DNA of 64,000 nucleotides, taken from contig NZ_CP162414.1 of the NCBI RefSeq assembly GCF_040932005.1, positions 1,019,501 through 1,083,500 on the forward strand, read 5' to 3'. The notes beneath the pieces were generated by a model, which saw nothing but the letters and a program-made list of their open reading frames with translations, had not been told where the DNA came from and did no database searches. Origin of the DNA: Aestuariibius sp. HNIBRBA575 (GTDB lineage Bacteria; Pseudomonadota; Alphaproteobacteria; Rhodobacterales; Rhodobacteraceae). Positions 51,320 to 64,000 of the stretch are shown piece after piece (within the stretch, counting starts at the first letter, position 1; the number at the start of each line of letters is the position of its first letter). The translations under genes and the position numbers were made by a program.

Positions 51320-51889
51320 CTATTGACCCGCACACCAAGCTTTGACGGCGGTCGTGGCGGAATTGGTAGACGCGCAGCGTTGAGGTCGCTGTGAGGTAAC
51401 ACTCGTGGGGGTTCGAGTCCCCCCGACCGCACCAAAACAGACACCTTGGTCTGCAATCTTCTCTAAAGCTTTGAACGGTAAGGCTATTTGTGGGGTTCTA
51501 GGTCCCTTAAAACGGTCGTATTGGATGCGGTCTGCGAAGGCCAGTTTTAGCACTGTGCGACGCAGGGCTGTGTGACCTGATTCCCAGAGTTTCCGAGGAT
51601 TTGAGAGGAATGTGAGGACCGGTTCTAGTTTTTCCTCGTAAGTTCCTCTCGGTTCGGCTTGATGTGTCAGCTGTTCGCCGAGGATGATCTTTTGTTTTTC
51701 CAACGCCCCGATCTTGGTCTCATAAGTGCCAATCACGGTGCCATTGGTTGATTCCATGATGCGCGACAGCAGCGTTTCGATTTGCTTGTCCAAAACACGA
51801 AGTTGGTCTTTTCCAGACTTGATGGCGTCTTGCGCTTGAGCACGGCGTTGGTTCCACGCGTGATGGAACATCGCCTTCGCTACAGCGCG
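51320..51889 (-). pseudogene. C-terminal remnant of a large serine recombinase
   Basis: The minus-strand frame reads RRAQAQDAIKSGKDQLRVLD, ...IETLLSRIMESTNGTVIGTY, YETKIGALEKQKIILGEQL, LEPVLTFLSNPRKLWESGH, LRRTVLKLAFADRIQYDRF and LPFKALEKIA. This is the coiled-coil and C-terminal end of large serine site-specific recombinases. The N-terminal catalytic domain (with the Ser nucleophile) and the recombinase domain are missing. Family-like sequence stops at the 41-bp repeat beginning at 51890. At the other end the frame reads through the tRNA-Leu gene to a stop at 51320, as happens when an element's recombinase sits against its tRNA target. It is inactive as it stands. Confidence 0.75.
51348..51434 (+). 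tRNA. tRNA-Leu (anticodon GAG)
   Basis: The acceptor stem GCGGTCG/CGACCGC pairs over 7 bp; CCA is encoded. The D arm reads GCGGAATTGGTAGACGCGC. The anticodon arm is AGCG-TTGAGGT-CGCT with GAG in the loop. A long variable arm (class II) precedes the T arm GGGGGTTCGAGTCCCCC. All elements are intact. It marks the left border of the accessory island, with recombinase remains immediately downstream on the opposite strand. Confidence 0.97.
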
Positions 51890-51930
51890 AAGCTTGCCGC
51901 TTCTTCTCCTTTCAACTAGTTTCAACCCAT
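51890..51930 (+). repeat. 41-bp direct repeat, left copy
   Basis: The sequence from AAGCTTGCCGCTTC to TTTCAACCCAT matches 58032-58072 at 38 of 41 positions in the same orientation. It lies exactly at the join between the recombinase remnant and the truncated methyltransferase frame. The centre contains the palindrome AACTAGTT. Confidence 0.85.
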
Positions 51931-53293
51931 GACCGCCAAACGCCCGCTGGCTGTTAACACGCTGGCCCGGATTGCACGCGGCATGAAACGGTATGTTCTG
52001 GATGCGGAACGCCCTTTTCTGGTGAACATGACACAAGGTGGACAGGTTGCCCCATCGATCACCCGGTTCAATTCTGGCGCGACAGGCCACGCGATCACCG
52101 ACCCAATGGCAACGGTTACAGCGAACAGCTTTATCAAACGCCCAGGTGGGGCCGCACCGATTGGATTGCTGGCACCGGCATTGGCAACCTATTATGGCCA
52201 CACTGGAAATCGGGGAAAGCGCAGCGCAAACGTATTAGAGCCGCTGCGCACCGTTACAACCGAAAATAGACACGCTGTAATCGCACCCAGCCTCATGAGC
52301 CTCAAAGGCACATCGCGCCGATCCAGTTCAGCCGTTGAACCACATCCAACGATTTTAGCCGGCGGATTTCATTCTGCGCTGATCGCACCGCACGTCGCCA
52401 CAATGCGCAACGCTCAGAAGCCGTTTAGTCACGCAGATGAACCTACCCACACAATTACAGCTGGGGGCGCAGGGTTGTATGTTGCAGCACCGGTCCTGAC
52501 CTATGCCCAACAAGGCGGATCAAACCGATCGGTCACAGACCCGCACCACACAATCTGCGCAAACAGCAAGGATCAGAATGCGGTGATCATTCCAACCATC
52601 GTCGGTTGCGGTGGTCGCGCGGCACAAAGCAGACCGAGGGGTGGCCCCGAACCTTTGGCGACTATTACAGCCAAGGCGGACAGTTGCGCAGCAACGGCCT
52701 TCCTTGCCCAGCACAACACAGCGCGAAAAGGCGTCAATCCGGGCCGGTCCTTGGAACAACCCGCATCCACCGTGACAGGTACAGGTAGCCAGCAAGGCGT
52801 GATTGCGTCGTGGTTTGCCAAATACTACGGAACCGGCGACGGGGCCCTGACCGACGACCCCATGCACACGGTCACCGTGAAGGATCGCTTTGGCCACATG
52901 CAGGCCGACATACAAGCCCCGCCATTCACCCCTGAAATGGAAAGCCGTGCCCGTGAAGTTGCAGACTTTCTGCGGGCCCATGACGCTTGGGACGGGGGCG
53001 AGTTCGTCACACTGGAAATCGACGGTGAAACCTATGTGATCGCGGATATCGGAATGCGGATGCTGACCCCGCGCGAATTGTTCAACGCCCAAGGCTTCCC
53101 ATCTGACTATGTAATCGAAGGCGTCTGGAACCACGAAGCCGAAACCGACAAATGGACATGGAACCCCTTCACCAAAGCAACGCAAGTCAGCTGCTGCGGC
53201 AACAGCGTCTGCCCCGACATGGGTGCAGCACTGGTCGGCGCAAACTGCGCGCACCTCAAAGTCAACGCCGATCAGGAGGCCGCGCATGGATGA
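51929..53293 (+). pseudogene. phage-type DNA (cytosine-5) methyltransferase, N-terminally truncated
   Basis: An open frame of 454 residues holding only the C-terminal half of a C5 methyltransferase. The end carries IGMRMLTPRELFNAQGFPSD (motif IX region) and VSCCGNSVCPDMGAALVGA (motif X, GNSV). The preceding ~330 residues are a target-recognition region built of repeats ending in D/E-P-x-x-T-V/I-T (for example ITDPMATVTA, LEPLRTVTT, DEPTHTITAGG, DDPMHTVTV). The SAM-binding motif I and the catalytic PCQ loop of motif IV are absent, removed at the 41-bp repeat. It probably derives from a prophage and cannot methylate alone. Confidence 0.75.
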
Positions 53294-53353
53294 TCGAAGT
53301 CAGATTGTAGTTGGGATCAAGTCAGCTCAAAATATGTGGAAGAGGATTGGTTT

Positions 53354-53551
53354 ATGGTGATCAAATTAAGCAAATCTCTTGAGAGACAGGCCGACAGGGC
53401 AAATGCTTTGATTGAATACTTCGAGCAAAAGGGCCGACATATTTGTGGTGTCAGGATCGACAACAACGTTGTTCATCTTGATTTCCGCGACAACGATGCT
53501 CCTAACTCGAAGCATCACGACGTTGCGGATTTAGTGAGGATGGATGATTGA
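53354..53551 (+). CDS. small hypothetical protein upstream of integrase
   Basis: 65 residues (MVIKLSKSLERQADRANALI ...). The N-terminal half is a basic amphipathic helix; the C-terminus HHDVADLVRMDD is acidic. AGAGGA precedes the ATG. The stop overlaps the TTG start of the integrase, so it is co-translated and could be an excisionase or accessory factor, though no HTH is visible. Confidence 0.5.
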   Translation: MVIKLSKSLERQADRANALIEYFEQKGRHICGVRIDNNVVHLDFRDNDAPNSKHHDVADLVRMDD

Positions 53552-54564
53552 AACGAGACCTTCCTGCATATGTTGTCCGCCTCAAGGGTGTTTTGTATTT
53601 CAAACGTAGAGGATGGAAAACTTATCGATTTCAGAACCAGATTTTGAATGACGGGTTTTGGGCCGAATATGCGCGGACACTGAACGGCGTAGAAATTAAG
53701 CCCACGGTGTTTCTGGTTCGCGATCTCATCGCCCGCTATTATGATTCCCCAAAGTTCAAGAATTTGGCTGACCGAAGCCGAAAGGACTACATCAAGTATC
53801 TGGATGTTTTTGGGAAAAACGCCGGAGCGGTTGGCGTTAGTTCAATTAAGCGGAAGAACATCATCGCTTGGCGTGATCAACTTGCGGTTAAACACACCCC
53901 ACATTTTGCCAATTATTGGCTCCGTGTTGTGCGGCCATTATTTGAATTTGCAATTGATCTAGATGCTCTATCAAGCAACCCCGCCAAAGGGATACCTTCG
54001 CTTAAATACCAAAAGCGAGAGGCTAAACCTTGGCCTCTAGAATTGATCCAAAAAGCGCGGGAAGCCCGACCCTCCGGTGATCGGACCCGACTGCTGTTTG
54101 AGTTGCTGTATTGTACCGGTCAGAGGATTGGCGATGTCCTTGATGCGGAGTGGACTGACATTCAAGGTTCAAGAATATCAGTGCGGCAGAATAAGACCGG
54201 AACACCGTTGGTTCTGCCAATTACCGAAGAACTGGCCAAATGCTTAAGGGAGGCGAAGCGTTACAACGAAGTCCCAACGATCCTGGCTAACTATCAAGGC
54301 AAGGGAAAGTGGTCGTATCGTGGCGCTCATGACGCGGTAATGAAGCTGCGGAAGGAAATTGGAGCGCAAGATCATGCTATCCATGACATCCGGCACACCG
54401 TTGCGTCTGAGATCGTAGCTGCAGGTGGCGGGGATGAAGAGGGCATGGCGATCACTGGCCACAAAACGCCTAAGATGTTTGCTCACTACAGCAAGGCAAC
54501 GAGGCAAATAACACGGGCTGAGAACGCTCAAAAACGGCGGGGACAGAACAAAAACAAAACGTGA
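53548..54564 (+). CDS. tyrosine-type site-specific recombinase / integrase
   Basis: A 338-residue integrase starting with TTG, overlapping the previous stop. The N-terminal SAM-like core-binding domain (~50-140, SRKDYIKYLDVFGKNAGAVG) precedes the catalytic domain: Arg in LLYCTGQRIGDVLDAEW, HDIRHTVASEIVAAGGG (H-x-x-R), ITGHKTPKMFAHYSKATR with the second His and the nucleophilic Tyr. All catalytic residues are present, so it may be active. It ends 70 bp from a tRNA-Cys 3' fragment, its probable attachment site. Confidence 0.9.
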   Translation: MKRDLPAYVVRLKGVLYFKRRGWKTYRFQNQILNDGFWAEYARTLNGVEIKPTVFLVRDLIARYYDSPKFKNLADRSRKDYIKYLDVFGKNAGAVGVSSIKRKNIIAWRDQLAVKHTPHFANYWLRVVRPLFEFAIDLDALSSNPAKGIPSLKYQKREAKPWPLELIQKAREARPSGDRTRLLFELLYCTGQRIGDVLDAEWTDIQGSRISVRQNKTGTPLVLPITEELAKCLREAKRYNEVPTILANYQGKGKWSYRGAHDAVMKLRKEIGAQDHAIHDIRHTVASEIVAAGGGDEEGMAITGHKTPKMFAHYSKATRQITRAENAQKRRGQNKNKT

Positions 54565-54633: not shown

Positions 54634-54682
54634 TGGAGGCGAGTACCGGAATCGAACCGGTGTACACGGATTTGCAATCCAG
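54634..54682 (-). repeat. 3' half of tRNA-Cys(GCA): probable integrase attachment site
   Basis: On the minus strand the sequence reads GGATTGCAAATCCGTGTACA, then CCGGTTCGATTCCGG and CTCGCCTCCA: the anticodon stem-loop with GCA, T arm and acceptor 3' strand of tRNA-Cys including CCA. The 5' half (D arm and acceptor 5' strand) is missing, so no functional tRNA is made. Such 3' ends are classic att sites carried by integrative elements. Confidence 0.85.
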
Positions 54683-55809: not shown

Positions 55810-55878
55810 TACGCTATAGCGTAAAAAGTATATATTTACGTTGCGGCGTAATTTGTTTTCATTTACGCTGCGCCGTAA
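55810..55878 (+). promoter_or_regulatory. three evenly spaced palindromic operators upstream of hipB
   Basis: Three copies of (T)TACG-N6-CGTA(A): 55810-55823 (perfect palindrome TACGCTATAGCGTA), 55836-55851 and 55863-55878. Centres are 27 bp apart in both intervals. The last lies 13 bp before the hipB start and touches its ribosome-binding site. They are very likely HipB binding sites for autorepression, comparable to the multiple TATCC-N8-GGATA operators of E. coli hipBA. Confidence 0.8.
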
Positions 55879-55891
55879 AAGGAGCCGCATC

Positions 55892-56137
55892 ATGGACTTC
55901 ACAGCACGAACGGCCGAGCAGATTGGCGAGGCACTCCGCCGGACGCGCAAAGCGCGCGGCTGGACCCAAAGCGATATCAGCGCGCGCACGAATTTGCGCG
56001 TCGCGACGATTTCATCGCTGGAGAATGGCGACGCGGGCACCAAACTCGCCACTGTGCTCGCTGTCATGGCGGCTCTTGGGCTTGAGTTCAGATTGGTGGA
56101 GCGCGGTGGCTCGCTTGAAATCGAGGATATCTTCTGA
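55892..56137 (+). CDS. hipB: HipB-type antitoxin / Xre-family HTH regulator
   Basis: 81 residues forming a compact Xre HTH: EQIGEALRRTRKARGWTQSD, ISARTNLRVATISSLENGDA, then LATVLAVMAALGLEFRLVER. It has the HipB size and pairing. The ATG at 55892 follows AGGAG. HipB neutralises HipA and represses the operon by binding the operators just upstream. Its stop overlaps the hipA start (TGATG). Confidence 0.88.
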   Translation: MDFTARTAEQIGEALRRTRKARGWTQSDISARTNLRVATISSLENGDAGTKLATVLAVMAALGLEFRLVERGGSLEIEDIF

Positions 56138-57429
56138 TGGCGAAACGCGGGCGTAGCGGCACGATGCAGGTTCTTCTGAATGGAAGGCTGGTGGGGGCTT
56201 TGCGTCTCGCTGGCTCAGGCGCAATCAGCTTCAACTATGATCCGGACTGGCTGTCGTGGGAGCACGCCATGCCCATCTCGCTGTCCCTGCCTTTGCGCGA
56301 AGAGGCGCACCAAGGCGGCCCTGTCATTGCCTACCTGGAAAACCTGCTGCCGGACAATCAGGCGATACGTGAGCGCGTTGCCGCGCGGGTGCGTGCGGGC
56401 GGCACGGACGCGTGGCACATGCTGGAGAAGATCGGGCGCGATTGCGTAGGGGCGTTGCAGTTCGTCTCGGGTGAGGTCCCCGAGGTTGGCCCACTCGAGG
56501 GAGAGCCCGTAACTGAGGCGCAGATTGCTGATATGCTGCGCAACCTCGCGAGCGCTCCGCTGGGCTTGGATGAGGCAGACGACTTCCGCATTTCGATCGC
56601 TGGGGCGCAGGAGAAAACAGCGCTGCTGCGCCACGAGGGAACGTGGATCCGTCCATCGGGGCTTGCCCCCACAACCCATATCCTCAAGACCCAACTCGGC
56701 GTTCTGCCCGCTGGGATCGATTTGTCCGACAGCGTTGAGAACGAGTATTTCTGCATGAGCTTTTGCCGTGCCATGGGCATGGATGTCGCGGTGGTCGAGA
56801 TTGCTGATTTTGAAGACGTGCGCAGCCTTGTTGTGACGCGGTTCGATCGGCGTTGGACCAAGGATGGCCGCTTGATCCGCCTTCCGCAGGAAGACTTTTG
56901 CCAAGCGCTCACAGTTCCGCCAAGCCAGAAATACCAAATGGATGGCGGGCCGGGGATCACCGAAGGAATCGGGTTGCTGACTGGCAGTGATGACCCCGAG
57001 GCGGATCAGCGCGTGTTTTTCCGCACGCAGGTGCTGTTTTGGCTTTTGGGAGCGACGGACGGGCACGCCAAGAACTTCAGCATTGCATTGCGCCCCGGCG
57101 GGTTCCGCATGACCCCGCTTTATGATGTGCTGAGCGCCCAGAAAGCCGTGGATGACGGTCAAATCCGCCAGAACCGGATGCGTCTCGCGATGGCAGTCGA
57201 CGGGCACTACCGGATCAATGAGGTGGTGCCCCGCCATTTCCTGCAGGCTGCGAAGGCGGCAGGTTTTGGTGTGGCGCTGGCGGAAGAGGTCTTGTCGGGC
57301 GTCGCGTCTGAGCTTGAACCCGCCTTGGGCAAGACACTAGCAGATCTGCCGGATGGGTTTCCACAGCCATTGGCAGATGCCATTGCTGCTGGCATACGAC
57401 GTCGGGCGATTGCCTTTCATGCCGTATGA
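56137..57429 (+). CDS. hipA: HipA family serine/threonine kinase toxin
   Basis: A 430-residue HipA. The N-terminal couple-HipA domain includes ISLSLPLREEAHQGGPVIAY and YLENLLPDNQAIRERVAAR. The ATP loop is RISIAGAQEKTALL, with Ser153 matching the autophosphorylated Ser150 of E. coli HipA. The catalytic loop is GATDGHAKNFSI (Asp308; Asp309 in E. coli), and the Mg-binding block is MTPLYDVLSA. All key residues are present, so an active kinase is expected. E. coli HipA phosphorylates glutamyl-tRNA synthetase and causes persistence; the target here is not known. Confidence 0.92.
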   Translation: MAKRGRSGTMQVLLNGRLVGALRLAGSGAISFNYDPDWLSWEHAMPISLSLPLREEAHQGGPVIAYLENLLPDNQAIRERVAARVRAGGTDAWHMLEKIGRDCVGALQFVSGEVPEVGPLEGEPVTEAQIADMLRNLASAPLGLDEADDFRISIAGAQEKTALLRHEGTWIRPSGLAPTTHILKTQLGVLPAGIDLSDSVENEYFCMSFCRAMGMDVAVVEIADFEDVRSLVVTRFDRRWTKDGRLIRLPQEDFCQALTVPPSQKYQMDGGPGITEGIGLLTGSDDPEADQRVFFRTQVLFWLLGATDGHAKNFSIALRPGGFRMTPLYDVLSAQKAVDDGQIRQNRMRLAMAVDGHYRINEVVPRHFLQAAKAAGFGVALAEEVLSGVASELEPALGKTLADLPDGFPQPLADAIAAGIRRRAIAFHAV

Positions 57430-58097: not shown

Positions 58098-58292
58098 ATG
58101 CCCAATGAAGACATTTTGACCGTGAAAGAGCTCGCTGAGTATCTCAAAATCGCTGAGAAAACGGCCTATCGGTTCGCATCTGAGGGGAAGGTTCCCGGGT
58201 TCAAGGTGGGAAGCGCATGGCGGTTTCGCAAAAGCGAGATCGATCGCTGGATTGCTGAGCAGGAACAAAAACAAGAAGGGGAGCAGAAATGA
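58098..58292 (+). CDS. excisionase-family HTH protein leading the hsd operon
   Basis: 64 residues with a MerR/excisionase-like winged helix: [40 protein letters not shown] and [26 protein letters not shown] lies upstream. The stop overlaps the hsdM start (ATGA), so it is part of the operon. Such genes often lead type I restriction operons and may control their expression, acting like a C protein, though this is inferred. The Gln/Glu-rich tail is probably disordered. Confidence 0.82.
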
Positions 58293-59833
58293 CGGGTCAG
58301 CAACAAGCTGAGGCTTTGCGCCGGGAAATCTGGCAAATCGCAAATAGAGTGCGCGGCGCGGTCGATGGCTGGGACTTCAAGCAGTTCGTCCTAGGGGCAT
58401 TGTTCTATCGCTTCATCAGTGAGAACTTCACCAACTACATCGAAGGTGGCGACGACAGTATCGATTATGCTGGAATGTCTGACGCTGACATCCCCGATGA
58501 CGTCAAAGTCGATGCGATCAAGACCAAGGGATACTTTATCTATCCAAGTCAGCTCTTTCAAAATGTGGCCAAGACCGCGAGCAAGAACGACAGCCTGAAC
58601 ACCGACTTGGCAGAAGTCTTTTCGGCGATCGAGGCTTCAGCGAGTGGCTACCCGTCGGAAGACGACATCATTGGCCTCTTTGCTGACTTCGACACCACCA
58701 GCAACCGCCTTGGCAACACGGTTAAGCAGAAGAACGAACGCCTGGCGGAAGTCCTCAAGGGCGTCGAAAGCGTAACCTTGAACTTCGACGAAAACGAAGG
58801 CGACCTCTTTGGCGACGCCTATGAGTTCCTGATCTCAAACTATGCGGCCAATGCGGGCAAGTCAGGCGGCGAGTTCTTCACGCCAACCCATGTCTCCAAG
58901 CTGATCGCCAAGCTGGCCTTGCACAAGCAAACCAGCGTCAACAAAATCTATGATCCGGCGGCCGGGTCTGGATCGTTGCTGTTGCAGGCCAAGGATGAGT
59001 TCGACAAACACATCATCGAAGACGGCTTCTTCGGGCAGGAGATCAACTACACCACCTACAACCTCGCCCGCATGAACATGTTTCTGCACAACATCAACTA
59101 CGACAAGTTCAACATTCAGCATGGCAACACGCTGGAAGACCCGCATTTCGGCGATGACAAGCCCTTTGATGCCATCGTGTCGAACCCACCTTATTCGGTG
59201 AAATGGAAGGGCGCGGATGATCCGACCCTGATCAACGATGAACGCTTTGCACCAGCTGGTGTGCTTGCTCCGAAATCCAAGGCGGACTTTGCTTTTGTCC
59301 TTCATGCGCTGCACTACCTGTCGGCAAAAGGGCGCGCTGCAATCGTTTGCTTCCCGGGTATCTTCTATCGTGGTGGGGCAGAGCAGAAGATCCGCAAGTA
59401 TCTGGTCGACAACAACTTTGTCGAAACGGTTATCGCACTCGCGCCAAACCTGTTTTTCGGCACGACTATCGCGGTGAACATTCTCGTGCTTGCCAAGAAC
59501 AAGACCGACACGGCCGTTCAGTTCATCGATGCGACGGGTGAGGAGTTCTTCCGCAAGGGCACGAACAACAACTTCATGGAAGACCAGCACATTGCCGAAA
59601 TCATCAAGATGTTCGAAAGCAAAGTGAACGTGGCTCACGTGGCCGAAACCGTCCCTTACGACAAGATTGTCGAGAAAGACTACAGCCTTTCGGTCAGCGC
59701 CTATGTCGAGCCAAAGGACACCCGCGAAGTTATCGACATTACCAAGCTGAATGCTGCGCTGGAAACCACTGTCGCAAAGATCGACCAACTGCGCGCAGAC
59801 ATCGACGCCATCGTCGCGGAGATCGAGGCATGA
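58289..59833 (+). CDS. hsdM: type I restriction-modification DNA methyltransferase subunit
   Basis: A 514-residue adenine-N6 methyltransferase subunit of a type I (IC-like) enzyme. The N-terminal HsdM_N helical domain reads [20 protein letters not shown] and [19 protein letters not shown]. The N6-MTase domain has [20 protein letters not shown], motif [13 protein letters not shown] (Asp222) and motif [10 protein letters not shown] (Asn299). The C-terminus is helical ([20 protein letters not shown]). Two HsdM plus one HsdS form the methylase. All catalytic residues are present. It overlaps hsdS by ATGA. Confidence 0.96.
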
Positions 59834-61089
59834 GCGAACTAGGCTTCCTGGAAATGCTGCTGGATGGGGCTTCGGTGGAATGGATGCCGTTGGGCGATAT
59901 CGCGCAGTATTCAAAGACGCGCATCAGTTCAGAGCACCTCGACAAGACAAATTATGTGGGCGTGGACAACCTTCTGCAGAACCGAGCGGGAAGGGTTGAT
60001 TCAAGCTATGTGCCCACTTCTGGCAATCTGACGGAGTATCGGGCGAGCGACATTCTAATCGGGAATATTCGTCCCTACCTTAGGAAGATCTGGCTTGCCG
60101 ACCGAACAGGCGGAACCAACGGTGACGTTCTGGTCATCCATCCAACAGACGACGTTGTGAATCCGCGTTACCTGTATCAGGTCCTCACAGATGAAAAATT
60201 CTTTGAGTTCAATATTCAGCACTCCAAAGGGGCAAAGATGCCTCGCGGCAGCAAACCAGAAATCATTCGATACCCGGTGCCGGTTCCATGCCCAGACGAT
60301 CCAAAGAAGTCGCGTGACATCCAATCTGAGATCGTTCGGATTTTGGAGAGCTTCACCGAGCTGACAGCCGAGCTGACAGCCGAGCTGACAGCCGAGCTTA
60401 AGGCCCGCAGCAAACAATACAACTACTACCGCGATCAATTGCTAAGCTTTGAGGGTTGTGACGTCGACTGGAAACCACTTGATGAAATTGGTGAATTTAT
60501 TCGTGGGAAGCGTTTTACAAAGGCCGACTATGTCGATGACGGCGTCGATGTCATTCACTATGGAGAGATCTATACTCGTTATGGGGTTTACGCCTCACAA
60601 GTGTTTTCTCAAGTCAGCAAGGATCTGGCCGAATCGCTTAAATATGCAGAGCCGGGCGACGTTATTTTGACGGACGTCGGTGAGACAGTAGACGAGGTGG
60701 GTAAAGCTGTTGCATGGCTTGGAGACTCAAAGGTCGCGATCCATGATCACTGCTATGCTTTTCGGCACAAATTGAATCCCAAGTATGTAGCTTATTGCAT
60801 GCAAGCTTCGTCATTTATCACCAAAAAGTCGAAATATGTGGCCCGAACTAAGGTAAACACATTGCTTATAAAGGCGTTTGGAAAGGCGGAGATTCCGGTA
60901 CCTTGTCCTGACGACTCTGAAAAGTCCCTTGAAGAGCAGGCCCGCATCGTTGCCATCCTCGACAAGTTTGACACGCTGACCACATCGCTCAGCGAGGGCC
61001 TGCCGCGTGAAATCAAGTTGCGTCAGCAGCAGTATGAATACTACCGCGACCTGCTCTTGAGCTTCCCCAAATCCGAGGAGGCTGCGTAA
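59830..61089 (+). CDS. hsdS: type I restriction enzyme specificity subunit
   Basis: A 419-residue subunit with two target-recognition domains: TRD1 (~15-150, starting [20 protein letters not shown]) and TRD2 (~215-360, starting [19 protein letters not shown]). Conserved helical spacers follow each: [20 protein letters not shown], then RDQLLSF; and LREIKL-like [20 protein letters not shown]. The central spacer carries three exact 12-bp TAEL units. In EcoR124-type enzymes the number of such units sets the gap between the two half-sites. The DNA target itself cannot be read. hsdS is directly followed by prrC (TAA-ATG). Confidence 0.94.
60358..60393 (+). repeat. hsdS: 12-bp tandem repeat (x3) encoding TAEL units in HsdS
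   Basis: GAGCTGACAGCC is present three times without mismatch (60358-60369, 60370-60381, 60382-60393), then GAGCTT begins a partial fourth. It encodes ELTA x3 at residues 177-188. EcoR124I and EcoR124II differ by one such TAEL unit, which changes the recognition spacer from six to seven bases. Confidence 0.93.
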
Positions 61090-62328
61090 ATGAGCCAGAC
61101 CCTCGAAGAGATCGCAAGGCAGCTGCGGGATGCCAACAAAAAGGTACAGTTAATCTACGCATTCAATGGCACCGGCAAAACCCGCCTGTCCCGGGCAATG
61201 AAGGAGCTCATTGCCCCGAAACCCGAAGAAGGGGAGGAAGGCGCGCTCTCCCGCGAAAAAATACTGTACTACAATGCTTTCACTGAGGACCTGTTCTATT
61301 GGGACAATGACCTTGAGTCTGACACGATACCAAGGCTAAGGGTCCAGCCGAACAGCTTTACGGACTGGATTTTGGTGGACCAGGGGAAAGGTGTGGACAT
61401 CGTCAACAACTTTCAGAAGTACGCAACAGACAAGGTCACTCCAGCATTCAACGCAGTATATCAGGTAACTGACAAAGACGGCAAAAAGATTGATGTGCCT
61501 GCAAACTCAGAAGTGACTTTCCGAGTGAATCCGACCAATCTTGTCACAGAAGAAGGAGAGCTGATCGTCGCCGAGGATGGCAATCCGATTGTCACCGAAC
61601 AATATGACGTTGTGAAAATCTCTAAGGGCGAAGAGAGCAATTTCGTCTGGAGCATCTTCTTCACGTTGCTCGAGGAAGTGGTTTCAGTTCTGAACATTGC
61701 CGAGGTCGGCGATCGACCAACAGATCAGTTCAATGGGCTGCAGTACGTTTTTGTTGATGACCCAGTCAGCTCTCTTGATGAAAACCACTTGATCGAATTG
61801 GCGGTGAACCTGGCGAACCTGATCCAAGCTGCGCCGCAGCAACTGAAATTCGTCATCACAACCCATAGCCCTCTGTTCTACAACGTTTTGCACAACGAGC
61901 TTGATCTAAAGAAGCAGGGCAAGAAGGAAGGGTGCTATCTGCTTGAACGGTTGGAAGATGGGACCTTCAATCTGAACGTCAAATACGGCGATGCGAACAA
62001 GAGTTTTTCCTATCATTTGCATTTGAAGAAAGTGTTGGAGGAGGCGATCGCCGGCAACACTGTCGAGCGATACCATTTTACGCTGCTTCGGAACCTTTAT
62101 GAGAAAACGGCTGGGTTCCTGGGCTATGCAAGGTGGAGTGATCTGCTCGACACGGTGGAAGGCAGCAAAGATGCCTACGTGCGGGCAATCAACACTTTCA
62201 CCCATTCGGCGCTTTCGAATGAACAGGTCAGGGATCCTTCGCCCGCCGAGAAAAACACTGTGAAGCTCTTATTGGATAACTTGGTGAAGAATTACGCCTA
62301 TTGGCGACAGGATGAGCAAAATGGGTGA
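61090..62328 (+). CDS. prrC: PrrC-like tRNA anticodon nuclease
   Basis: 412 residues (E. coli PrrC has 396). The N-terminal ABC-type NTPase has Walker [13 protein letters not shown] (~23-34), Walker [16 protein letters not shown] with a D-loop-like end, and the H-loop [13 protein letters not shown]. The C-terminal nuclease keeps Arg334, Glu338 and His372 ([17 protein letters not shown]), aligning with the PrrC triad Arg320/Glu324/His356. [11 protein letters not shown] at 298-308 matches the Lys-anticodon recognition peptide near residue 284. PrrC cleaves tRNA-Lys at the anticodon when phage proteins inhibit the associated restriction enzyme. It sits between hsdS and hsdR, exactly as in E. coli prr, and overlaps hsdR by eight bases. 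Confidence 0.92.
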
Positions 62329-64000
62329 GCAGACGAAAACCATCGCGGAAACGAAGAATTTCATCGTCCTCGACAAGTACAACAAGGAATGGGACGCCGC
62401 AGATCGGTATCAGAGCGAAGATGATCTGGAACGTGAGTTGGTTCAGGACCTGGTCAATCAGGGCTATGAATTTATGCCTGCACTCACGACCCAAGAAGCC
62501 ATGCTCGCCAACGTTCGGGTGCAGCTAGAAGAACTGAACAACGTCAAGTTTTCGAATGAAGAATGGAAGCGTTTTGCCGAGACTTACCTAGACAAACCCA
62601 GCGACAACCTCGTCGACAAAACCCGCAAGATCCACGACGATTATATCCATGATTTCGTCTTTGACGACGGGCGCATTCAGAACATCTACCTCGTCGACAA
62701 AAAGAACAAGGCGCGCAACAAACTGCAGGTGATCAAGCAGTTCGAGCAAGTGGGCAGTCATTCCAATCGCTATGACGTGACGATCTTGGTCAATGGTTTG
62801 CCCTTGGTTCAAATTGAGCTGAAACGGCGCGGGGTGGCGATCCGAGAGGCGTTCAATCAGATCCACCGGTACAGCAAAGAGAGCTTCAACAGCGAAAATT
62901 CCCTGTTCAAGTTCCTGCAGCTTTTCGTGATTTCGAATGGCACCGACACCCGGTATTTCGCCAACACCACCAAGCGCAACAAAAACAGCTTTGACTTCAC
63001 CATGAACTGGGCGAAGTCGGACAACAGCTTGATCAAAGATCTGAAGGACTTCACCGCGACGTTCCTTCAGAAGCGCACACTGCTGAACGTTTTGCTGCAG
63101 TATTCGGTCTTCGATGTCAGCGACACATTGCTGGTCATGCGCCCCTACCAGATTGCTGCGACAGAACGCATTCTATGGAAGATCAAGAGTTCATTTGAGG
63201 CCAAAAACTGGAGAAAGCCAGAGGGTGGTGGCTTCATCTGGCACACCACTGGCTCTGGCAAGACCCTAACGAGTTTCAAGGCTGCGCGGTTAGCGACTGA
63301 GCTGGGATTTATCGACAAGGTTTTCTTCGTCGTGGACCGTAAGGATCTCGATTACCAGACCATGAAGGAATACCAGCGATTTTCCCCTGACAGTGTCAAC
63401 GGCTCTGACAGTACCGCCGGGTTGAAGCGCAACTTGAGTAAAGACGATAACAAAATCATCGTCACGACGATCCAGAAGCTGAATAATCTAATGAAATCAG
63501 AAGGCGATCTGCCGGTGTACGATCAGCAGGTGGTCTTCATTTTCGACGAGTGCCACCGCAGTCAGTTTGGCGAGGCGCAGAAGAACCTGAAAAAGAAGTT
63601 CAAGCGATTTTATCAGTTTGGCTTCACCGGAACACCGATCTTTCCTGAGAATGCACTGGGGGCTGAAACGACCGCCAGCGTGTTTGGACGTGAGTTGCAT
63701 TCCTATGTGATCACTGACGCCATTCGCGACGAAAAGGTTCTGAAATTCAAGGTCGACTACAACGATGTACGTCCCCGGTTTAAAGCCATTGAAACAGAGC
63801 AAGACGAAAAAAAGCTCAGCGCAGCTGAGAACAAGCAAGCGCTGCTTCATCAAGAACGTATTCGAGAAGTTTCGCAGTACATACTAAACAATTTCCGTCA
63901 GAAAACCCACCGAATGCATGCGGGAAGCAGTGGCTTCAACGCTATGTTCGCCGTCAGCAGTGTGGATGCGGCCAAGCTCTACTACGAAACCTTAAACGCT
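62321..64000 (+). CDS. hsdR: type I restriction enzyme endonuclease/translocase subunit (3' end off window)
   Basis: The first 560 residues are present; the gene runs past the right edge. The ATG at 62321 ([20 protein letters not shown]) mirrors the EcoR124I HsdR start and puts the nuclease residues at Asp152, Glu166 and Lys168 ([20 protein letters not shown]). That is one off the known 151/165/167. The helicase part begins with [20 protein letters not shown] (Walker A near 310) and includes [33 protein letters not shown] (DEAD-type box II) and [17 protein letters not shown] (motif III). It pumps DNA and cuts it at collision points. The ATG at 62312 is an alternative. Confidence 0.96.

Follow-up and report, generated by a model that had tools for sequence, protein, structure and literature searches.

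The window analysed here, a stretch of 64,000 nucleotides from the alpha-proteobacterium Aestuariibius sp. HNIBRBA575 (contig NZ_CP162414.1), contains an intact gene for a PrrC anticodon nuclease (prrC) set within a type IC restriction operon, in the order HTH (helix-turn-helix)-hsdM-hsdS-prrC-hsdR. Very probably this is a two-tier defence operon of the E. coli prr type hosted by an integrative conjugative element (ICE), in which the nuclease would be masked, triggered and set to cleave as in E. coli, and which would be transferred along with the element. The locus adds an alpha-proteobacterial mobile element to the places where the textbook guard defence is found, but is of a kind already known and is ordinary in itself: orthologues of PrrC associated with type IC systems have long been known in distant bacteria (PMC2610378), a prr operon is described on an ICE of Vibrio (PMC4857294), and the PrrC family is large (at least 8000 homologous proteins at E<=0.001). 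The part worth following is a different one. Operons with near-identical hsdM and hsdR genes carry markedly divergent prrC genes, which suggests that prrC is exchanged among them in a cassette-like manner.

PrrC and its type IC partners

The operon is made up of the following features, all on the + strand and numbered from the first letter of the window.
58098..58292, +, small HTH_17 gene, first of the operon, with an ATGA overlap with hsdM (PF12728, 1.5e-17)
58289..59833, +, hsdM, type IC DNA methyltransferase (TIGR00497, 1.7e-186; best PDB match EcoR124II M, 8.2e-264)
59830..61089, +, hsdS, specificity subunit (Pfam Methylase_S; best PDB match EcoR124II S)
60356..60398, +, 12-bp tandem repeat coding TAEL in HsdS (3.6 copies, 100% matches)
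61090..62328, +, prrC, anticodon nuclease, 412 aa (PADLOC model, residue-exact alignment to E. coli PrrC, 117-locus alignment)
61159..61182, +, Walker A region AFNGTGKT, residues 24-31 (N26, G29, K30 and T31 invariant in 117/117 loci)
61744..61764, +, Walker B YVFVDDP, residues 219-225 (D223 and D224 invariant in 117/117)
61864..61866, +, H-loop ("linchpin") His259 (invariant in 117/117)
61981..62013, +, anticodon-recognition peptide, 11 residues, 298-308, E. coli 284-294 (from the alignment and the classes found in the family; role after PMC3014915)
62089..62103, +, catalytic Arg334 and Glu338, equivalent to Arg320/Glu324 (invariant in 117/117)
62203..62205, +, catalytic His372, equivalent to His356 (invariant in 117/117)
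62312..64000, +, 5' part of hsdR, probable start ATG 62321, running to 65422 beyond the window (best PDB match 2w00 HsdR, E-value 0)

The preliminary description of this DNA, made from its letters, had taken the frame 61090-62328 for PrrC, and the assignment is borne out. The frame is open and intact from ATG 61090 to TGA 62328, and its product matches the PADLOC PrrC model with 441 bits (E 6.5e-133). E. coli prrABCD (EcoprrI) is represented here by plasmid NZ_CP061756 (L005) and by strain B1 (L004), an annotated relative standing in for the experimental strain CTr5X; 240 of 370 aligned positions (65%) are identical between the present protein and the anticodon nuclease of strain B1 (WP_032251799, 396 aa). 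The protein is thus a PrrC anticodon nuclease, the activity of which is predicted. The Walker A and B motifs, the H-loop, the Arg334-x3-Glu338 pair, His372 and the 11-residue peptide at 298 listed earlier are all there. In the alignment with E. coli PrrC, Arg334, Glu338 and His372 fall on Arg320, Glu324 and His356, which form the E. coli catalytic triad (PMC2610378), and Lys298 on K284, the first residue of the 284-294 peptide described as recognizing the anticodon (PMC3014915). The offsets to the E. coli numbering (+14 for the peptide, Arg and Glu, +16 for His) are exactly those given before.

The N-terminal domain is an ABC ATPase with Walker A/B motifs and the linchpin His, and lacks a zinc hook; the Arg-x3-Glu-xn-His triad is located in the C-terminal third. 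The C-terminal domain, modelled alone as had been proposed, finds its best structural match in HEPN RNases. The match list of the whole-protein model contains no HEPN row. No PDB relative was found with the protein as query at E<=0.01, five weak matches (E 0.031-0.51) were obtained with the PrrC profile, and no NCBIfam family matches the protein. A PrrC box of 15 residues has been named for the family without its letters (PMC3014915), and the strongly conserved residues 60-75 (16 aa) are a candidate for it.

Conservation was surveyed over 117 prrC loci, namely the present one, nine from E. coli or plasmids, 80 genome contigs, 22 viral contigs and five genomes of the same bacterial family. The genome contigs are the best 80 of 379 confirmed, and close relatives are over-represented among them. 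Excluded were seven loci of viral origin (L126-L132) with an identity of 26-32%, two of which gave no hit in the locus tblastn; in L126-L130 the order hsdS-prrC-hsdR is not apparent. The residues of the triad, the Walker motifs and the H-loop are invariant at all 117 loci, though one gene (L072) has an internal stop. An HsdR match lies downstream of prrC on the same strand in every case.

The type IC context claimed earlier holds, since the nearest solved relatives of HsdM, HsdS and HsdR are all subunits of EcoR124. HsdM matches the EcoKI M subunit at 5.9e-16 only, against 8.2e-264 for EcoR124II M, and HsdS matches EcoR124II S at 6.7e-54. The PDB matches of HsdR are five distinct sequences of 1038 aa, named HsdR or EcoR124II R; hsdR is complete in the genome and encodes 1036 aa, counted from an earlier ATG (62312). 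The resemblance of the gene order to prrA-prrB-prrC-prrD is confirmed down to the junctions: hsdM and hsdS overlap by 4 bp and prrC and hsdR by 8 bp, precisely as in E. coli L004, with a single-base difference at the hsdS/prrC junction. As to HsdS, the TAEL count is one above that of PDB 7bst chain A. The number of TAEL units sets spacer length in EcoR124, and the array may vary in copies here as well, shifting the spacer of the recognition site.

Gene order, triad, peptide position and type IC partners are thus common to the present system and to E. coli prrABCD. PrrC differs from the E. coli protein by lacking a short insert before Walker A and by a longer middle segment, and the operon differs by being preceded by the HTH gene and by residing on an element inserted at a tRNA-Cys gene. 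Of 104 loci, 20 (the present one included) have an HTH homologue no more than 1.2 kb upstream of hsdM. The preliminary description mentions neither the HTH gene nor the mobile element around the operon. A closer look is deserved by RloC, which like PrrC combines an ABC ATPase with a nuclease domain bearing the triad Arg-x3-Glu...His (PMC2610378). Pfam sees in the present protein nothing but AAA_13 (1.4e-17), and weak PADLOC matches to PDC-S06 and other models are found, as might be expected of RloC or of another ABC-HEPN protein of the AAA_13 kind. Such an identity can nevertheless be dismissed with near certainty. RloC proteins are about twice as long (658-897 aa against 412), carry a zinc hook and, according to the same source, are seldom linked to restriction-modification loci, whereas the present sequence has no CxxC, is linked to a type IC system, and scores 441 bits with PADLOC PrrC versus 50 with the next-best model.

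Probable exchange of prrC between operons

The gene is sparsely distributed. At E<=1e-60 it was found in six of 394 genomes of the bacterial family, the present one included; it occurs in six of 5426 E. coli genomes (a DNA-level search with partial coverage), in 113 of 72,556 plasmid records, and in none of 50,697 phage records (tblastn, E<=1e-5). IMG/VR holds 29 contigs with a prrC match, 22 of which were used. These 22 contigs (L104-L125) are classed as viral, and some may be conjugative elements miscalled as viruses. HsdR homologues at E<=1e-200 are present in 13 genomes of the family, in 10 of them as a full-length match (>=73%), and the count at the hsdS-hsdR interval covers these 10 of 13: six have prrC, and in the other four hsdR follows hsdS within 158 nt. 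Among named homologues, the nearest are from Rhodobacterales.

Evidence for exchange comes from the comparison of PrrC with its neighbours at the 98 loci where all three proteins are available (4753 pairs). Identities of HsdM and HsdR are well correlated (r 0.79), those of PrrC with HsdM (0.47) and HsdR (0.39) much less. Among 76 pairs with HsdR>=90% and HsdM>=88%, PrrC is below 70% in 32, and reaches 85% or more in 21. These pairs make up nine clusters with 44 loci, and five clusters include more than one PrrC group. The case of Marinomonas L053 and Acinetobacter L093 is telling, as HsdM is 99.2% and HsdR 97.6% identical, and PrrC 64.3%. Similarly, loci L124, L151, L117, L064 and L152 are 91-95% identical to this window in HsdR and 50-58.5% in PrrC, thus less than the E. 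coli protein. In contrast, L104, whose PrrC equals that of L105, is 91% identical to this window in both proteins. Altogether, eight operons with HsdR at 88% or above carry six PrrC alleles, with mutual identities below 65% and belonging to three recognition-peptide classes. At the DNA level, identity between G000 and either L117 or L152 is high through the 3' end of hsdS and the first prrC codons, drops inside prrC, and recovers at the start of hsdR.

Phylogenetic tests point the same way. PrrC data (374 columns) reject the HsdR topology by 4404 log-likelihood units and the HsdM topology by 4274, in tests in which replicates of the approximately unbiased (AU) test were flagged as too few for PrrC and HsdM. 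A clade of seven loci in the HsdR tree (SH-aLRT, the Shimodaira-Hasegawa-like approximate likelihood ratio test, 99) requires five changes on the PrrC tree, of which starred branches force four. Keeping the clade intact on PrrC costs 294.5 log-likelihood units (p-AU 5.8e-6). The latter test included 40 chosen rows and quick trees, the group was picked after seeing the identities, and L124 is a long branch. Two alignment rows are peculiar: L116, read past its stop, carried an HsdR tail and L072 its internal stop. Both entered the identity, residue-conservation, topology, peptide and cluster analyses where the other proteins allowed, and neither is in the seven-locus test.

Rapid evolution of PrrC was considered as the sole cause of the low identities, and is judged unlikely, because PrrC data reject the HsdR clade and identities do not scale: PrrC of L009 is 92-93% identical to those of L053 and L056 beside an HsdR identity of 77-78%, while the L053/L093 pair shows 64% beside 97.6%. 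Some observations weigh against the exchange reading in its neatest version. Four of the nine clusters have a single PrrC group; HsdM and HsdR are themselves not perfectly congruent, HsdM data (516 columns) rejecting the HsdR topology by 743 log-likelihood units; and DNA identity recovers only about 100-400 nt into hsdR in L151, compared with G000, and in the L053/L093 pair.

The recognition peptide follows PrrC. Of the 117 loci, 97 have an Asp-bearing 11-residue form, five have Gly or Ala for Asp, and 15 a shorter peptide (e.g. QPNDSPFSY). At the 98 loci, peptide class changes 15 times on the HsdR tree, as many times as there are minority rows (4+11), and four times on the PrrC tree, a FastTree phylogeny built with the peptide columns included. 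Peptide classes therefore move with PrrC, and not with the restriction enzyme. A broader scheme can be tentatively drawn, which is somewhat less likely to be right than wrong. PrrC would be an exchangeable effector cassette of type IC restriction operons, replaced by recombination between the 3' end of hsdS and the 5' part of hsdR, in the manner of the HsdS target-recognition domains but independently of these. Exchanges would switch peptide class, and one restriction enzyme could guard RNases that differ in tRNA target or in preference for a wobble modification, perhaps so as to outpace phage tRNAs and tRNA-repair enzymes. No description of prrC exchange was found among the open-access papers searched. 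The apparent exchange of alleles offers a way to test how HsdMSR masks PrrC, an old question. In natural operons, near-identical HsdM and HsdR tolerate PrrC proteins which are about 50-64% identical, and comparing such operons should therefore reveal the minimal masking interface; comparing the peptide classes should in turn tell whether tRNA targets have diversified.

The interval between prrC and hsdR varies as well. Counted from the end of prrC, the HsdR match begins at -23 to +102 nt at 89 loci, and at 178 to 3987 nt at 27. In L028 the gap contains no insert, and the frame within looks like an HsdR start. In L116 the two genes are adjacent, and a PrrC-HsdR fusion was rejected because a stop lies between them. 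Inserted open reading frames were scanned at seven loci (L032, L034, L049, L079, L082, L044, L113): two encode RhuM, two DUF1016/YhcG, one Fic, one Bro-N and one an AAA/SMC-like protein. RhuM and Fic are already described as neighbours of prr (PMC3710099).

Predicted target and mode of action

Our best guess is that PrrC targets tRNA-Lys(UUU). In the recognition peptide, 10 of 11 residues are shared with the E. coli protein, the one change being Ala302 for Ser288. Asp287 of E. coli PrrC is described as touching the wobble base in its modified form (PMC3014915), and is kept as Asp301. A search with a guessed anticodon-arm pattern gave no match, and an Rfam search then found in the genome a tRNA-Lys(UUU) gene (L161), the anticodon loop of which reads CTTTTAA and the discriminator of which is A. 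The conserved Asp301 and the matching loop help to narrow the predicted target. The tRNA list is incomplete, as its 39 Rfam hits include none for Ile or Tyr, and absence of tRNA-Lys(CUU) is not claimed. The genome has an MnmA match above cut-off, an MnmE match just below it, and a Methyltransf_30 protein (267-aa frame); because of these probable wobble-modification genes, an E. coli-like modification of the base is plausible. That a genuine PrrC may have another main target, owing to Ala302 and other diverged regions, is rather unlikely. The peptide is variable across the family, and substrates may vary with it (PMC3014915); however, the peptide is nearly unchanged here, Asp301 included, and both the matching tRNA and probable modification genes are present.

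By homology, a live two-tier anti-phage system is the natural reading of the operon. As in E. coli, the type IC enzyme would mark and cut foreign DNA, and at the same time keep PrrC latent. A phage, or other invader, might disable the enzyme, whether by an antirestriction factor or through a change in nucleotide pools. In PrrC, the ATPase part, which is Rad50/SMC-like, would then switch on the C-terminal HEPN RNase, which would cut tRNA-Lys(UUU) 5' of the wobble base and bring translation to a stop. One may wonder whether the operon is rather carried along by the mobile element as a passenger, silent or in decay. The patchy occurrence in the bacterial family would fit, as would the lack of prrC in a conspecific genome (G257, described below). 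Yet every frame is open, and both the junctions and the catalytic residues are preserved, and patchiness is usual for defence genes, which makes a passenger quite improbable and the working defence operon by far the better reading.

The mobile element

Two features of the element lie in the window upstream of the operon.
54634..54680, +, attL (left attachment site), 47 bp exactly repeating, in direct orientation, the end of the tRNA-Cys gene (second copy at 96130-96176, beyond the window; same copy in G257)
55841..57429, +, hipB-like and hipA-like pair, just upstream of the prr operon (Pfam HTH_3, Couple_hipA, HipA_C)

Coordinates above 64,000 continue the numbering of the window beyond its end. 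Some 41.5 kb lie between the 47-bp repeats, including an integrase gene next to tRNA-Cys (94916-96061) and genes for VirB4/6/8/9/10/11-type proteins, a relaxase and a coupling protein. The prr operon thus resides on an integrative conjugative element in tRNA-Cys, which is probably transferable. The prrABCD operon of Vibrio alginolyticus is likewise located on an ICE, ICEValA056-2; the latter belongs to the SXT/R391 family (PMC4857294), whereas the present element features a tRNA-Cys site, VirB-type transfer genes and ArdC.

The conspecific genome G257 is 98-99% identical to the present one up to the attachment site, and has the same left copy (the end that was examined). Inside the element identity is 89-92% over the aligned pieces, with one 174-bp piece at 83%. 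In G257, where prrC was not found at E<=1e-60, the slot is occupied by an MmeI-like type IIG restriction enzyme (L133:16298-19042; PADLOC 2.4e-265, and Pfam), so that the prr operon is cargo that can be swapped on an ICE-like element, and its slot has the look of a site for defence cargo.

The ArdC antirestriction gene resides at 66836-67714 (L003:8836-9714), about 1.4 kb downstream of the operon, within a portion of the element that is also present in G257. ArdC of R388 is reported to counteract HsdRMS in recipient cells (PMC7213743). One may speculate that ArdC on the same element is a candidate non-phage antirestriction trigger, able to unmask PrrC. As a conserved partner of prr it was rejected: by tblastn (E<=1e-5) it lies within the flank at one of the 80 genome-contig loci (L027), many flanks being shorter than 10 kb. 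The linkage therefore belongs to the present element, and not to prr operons in general.

The tRNA-Leu/integrase pair at 53548-54564 was set aside as the insertion site, because the stretch searched for direct repeats gave none of 14 bp or more (or of 11 bp with the tRNA 3' end), against the 47 bp of tRNA-Cys. The wider region with tRNA-Leu(GAG) and a tyrosine integrase (51348-54564), left of the tRNA-Cys element, is 98-99% identical in the conspecific genome, and is perhaps the remnant of a second element. Near the place of the hipBA-like pair, G257 has another open reading frame, HipA-like by eye. On the opposite side of the operon, a convergent gene follows hsdR on the - strand (65441-66538; L003:7441-8538); its product has a DUF4357 domain and matches the PADLOC candidate defence family PDC-S14 (2.3e-115).
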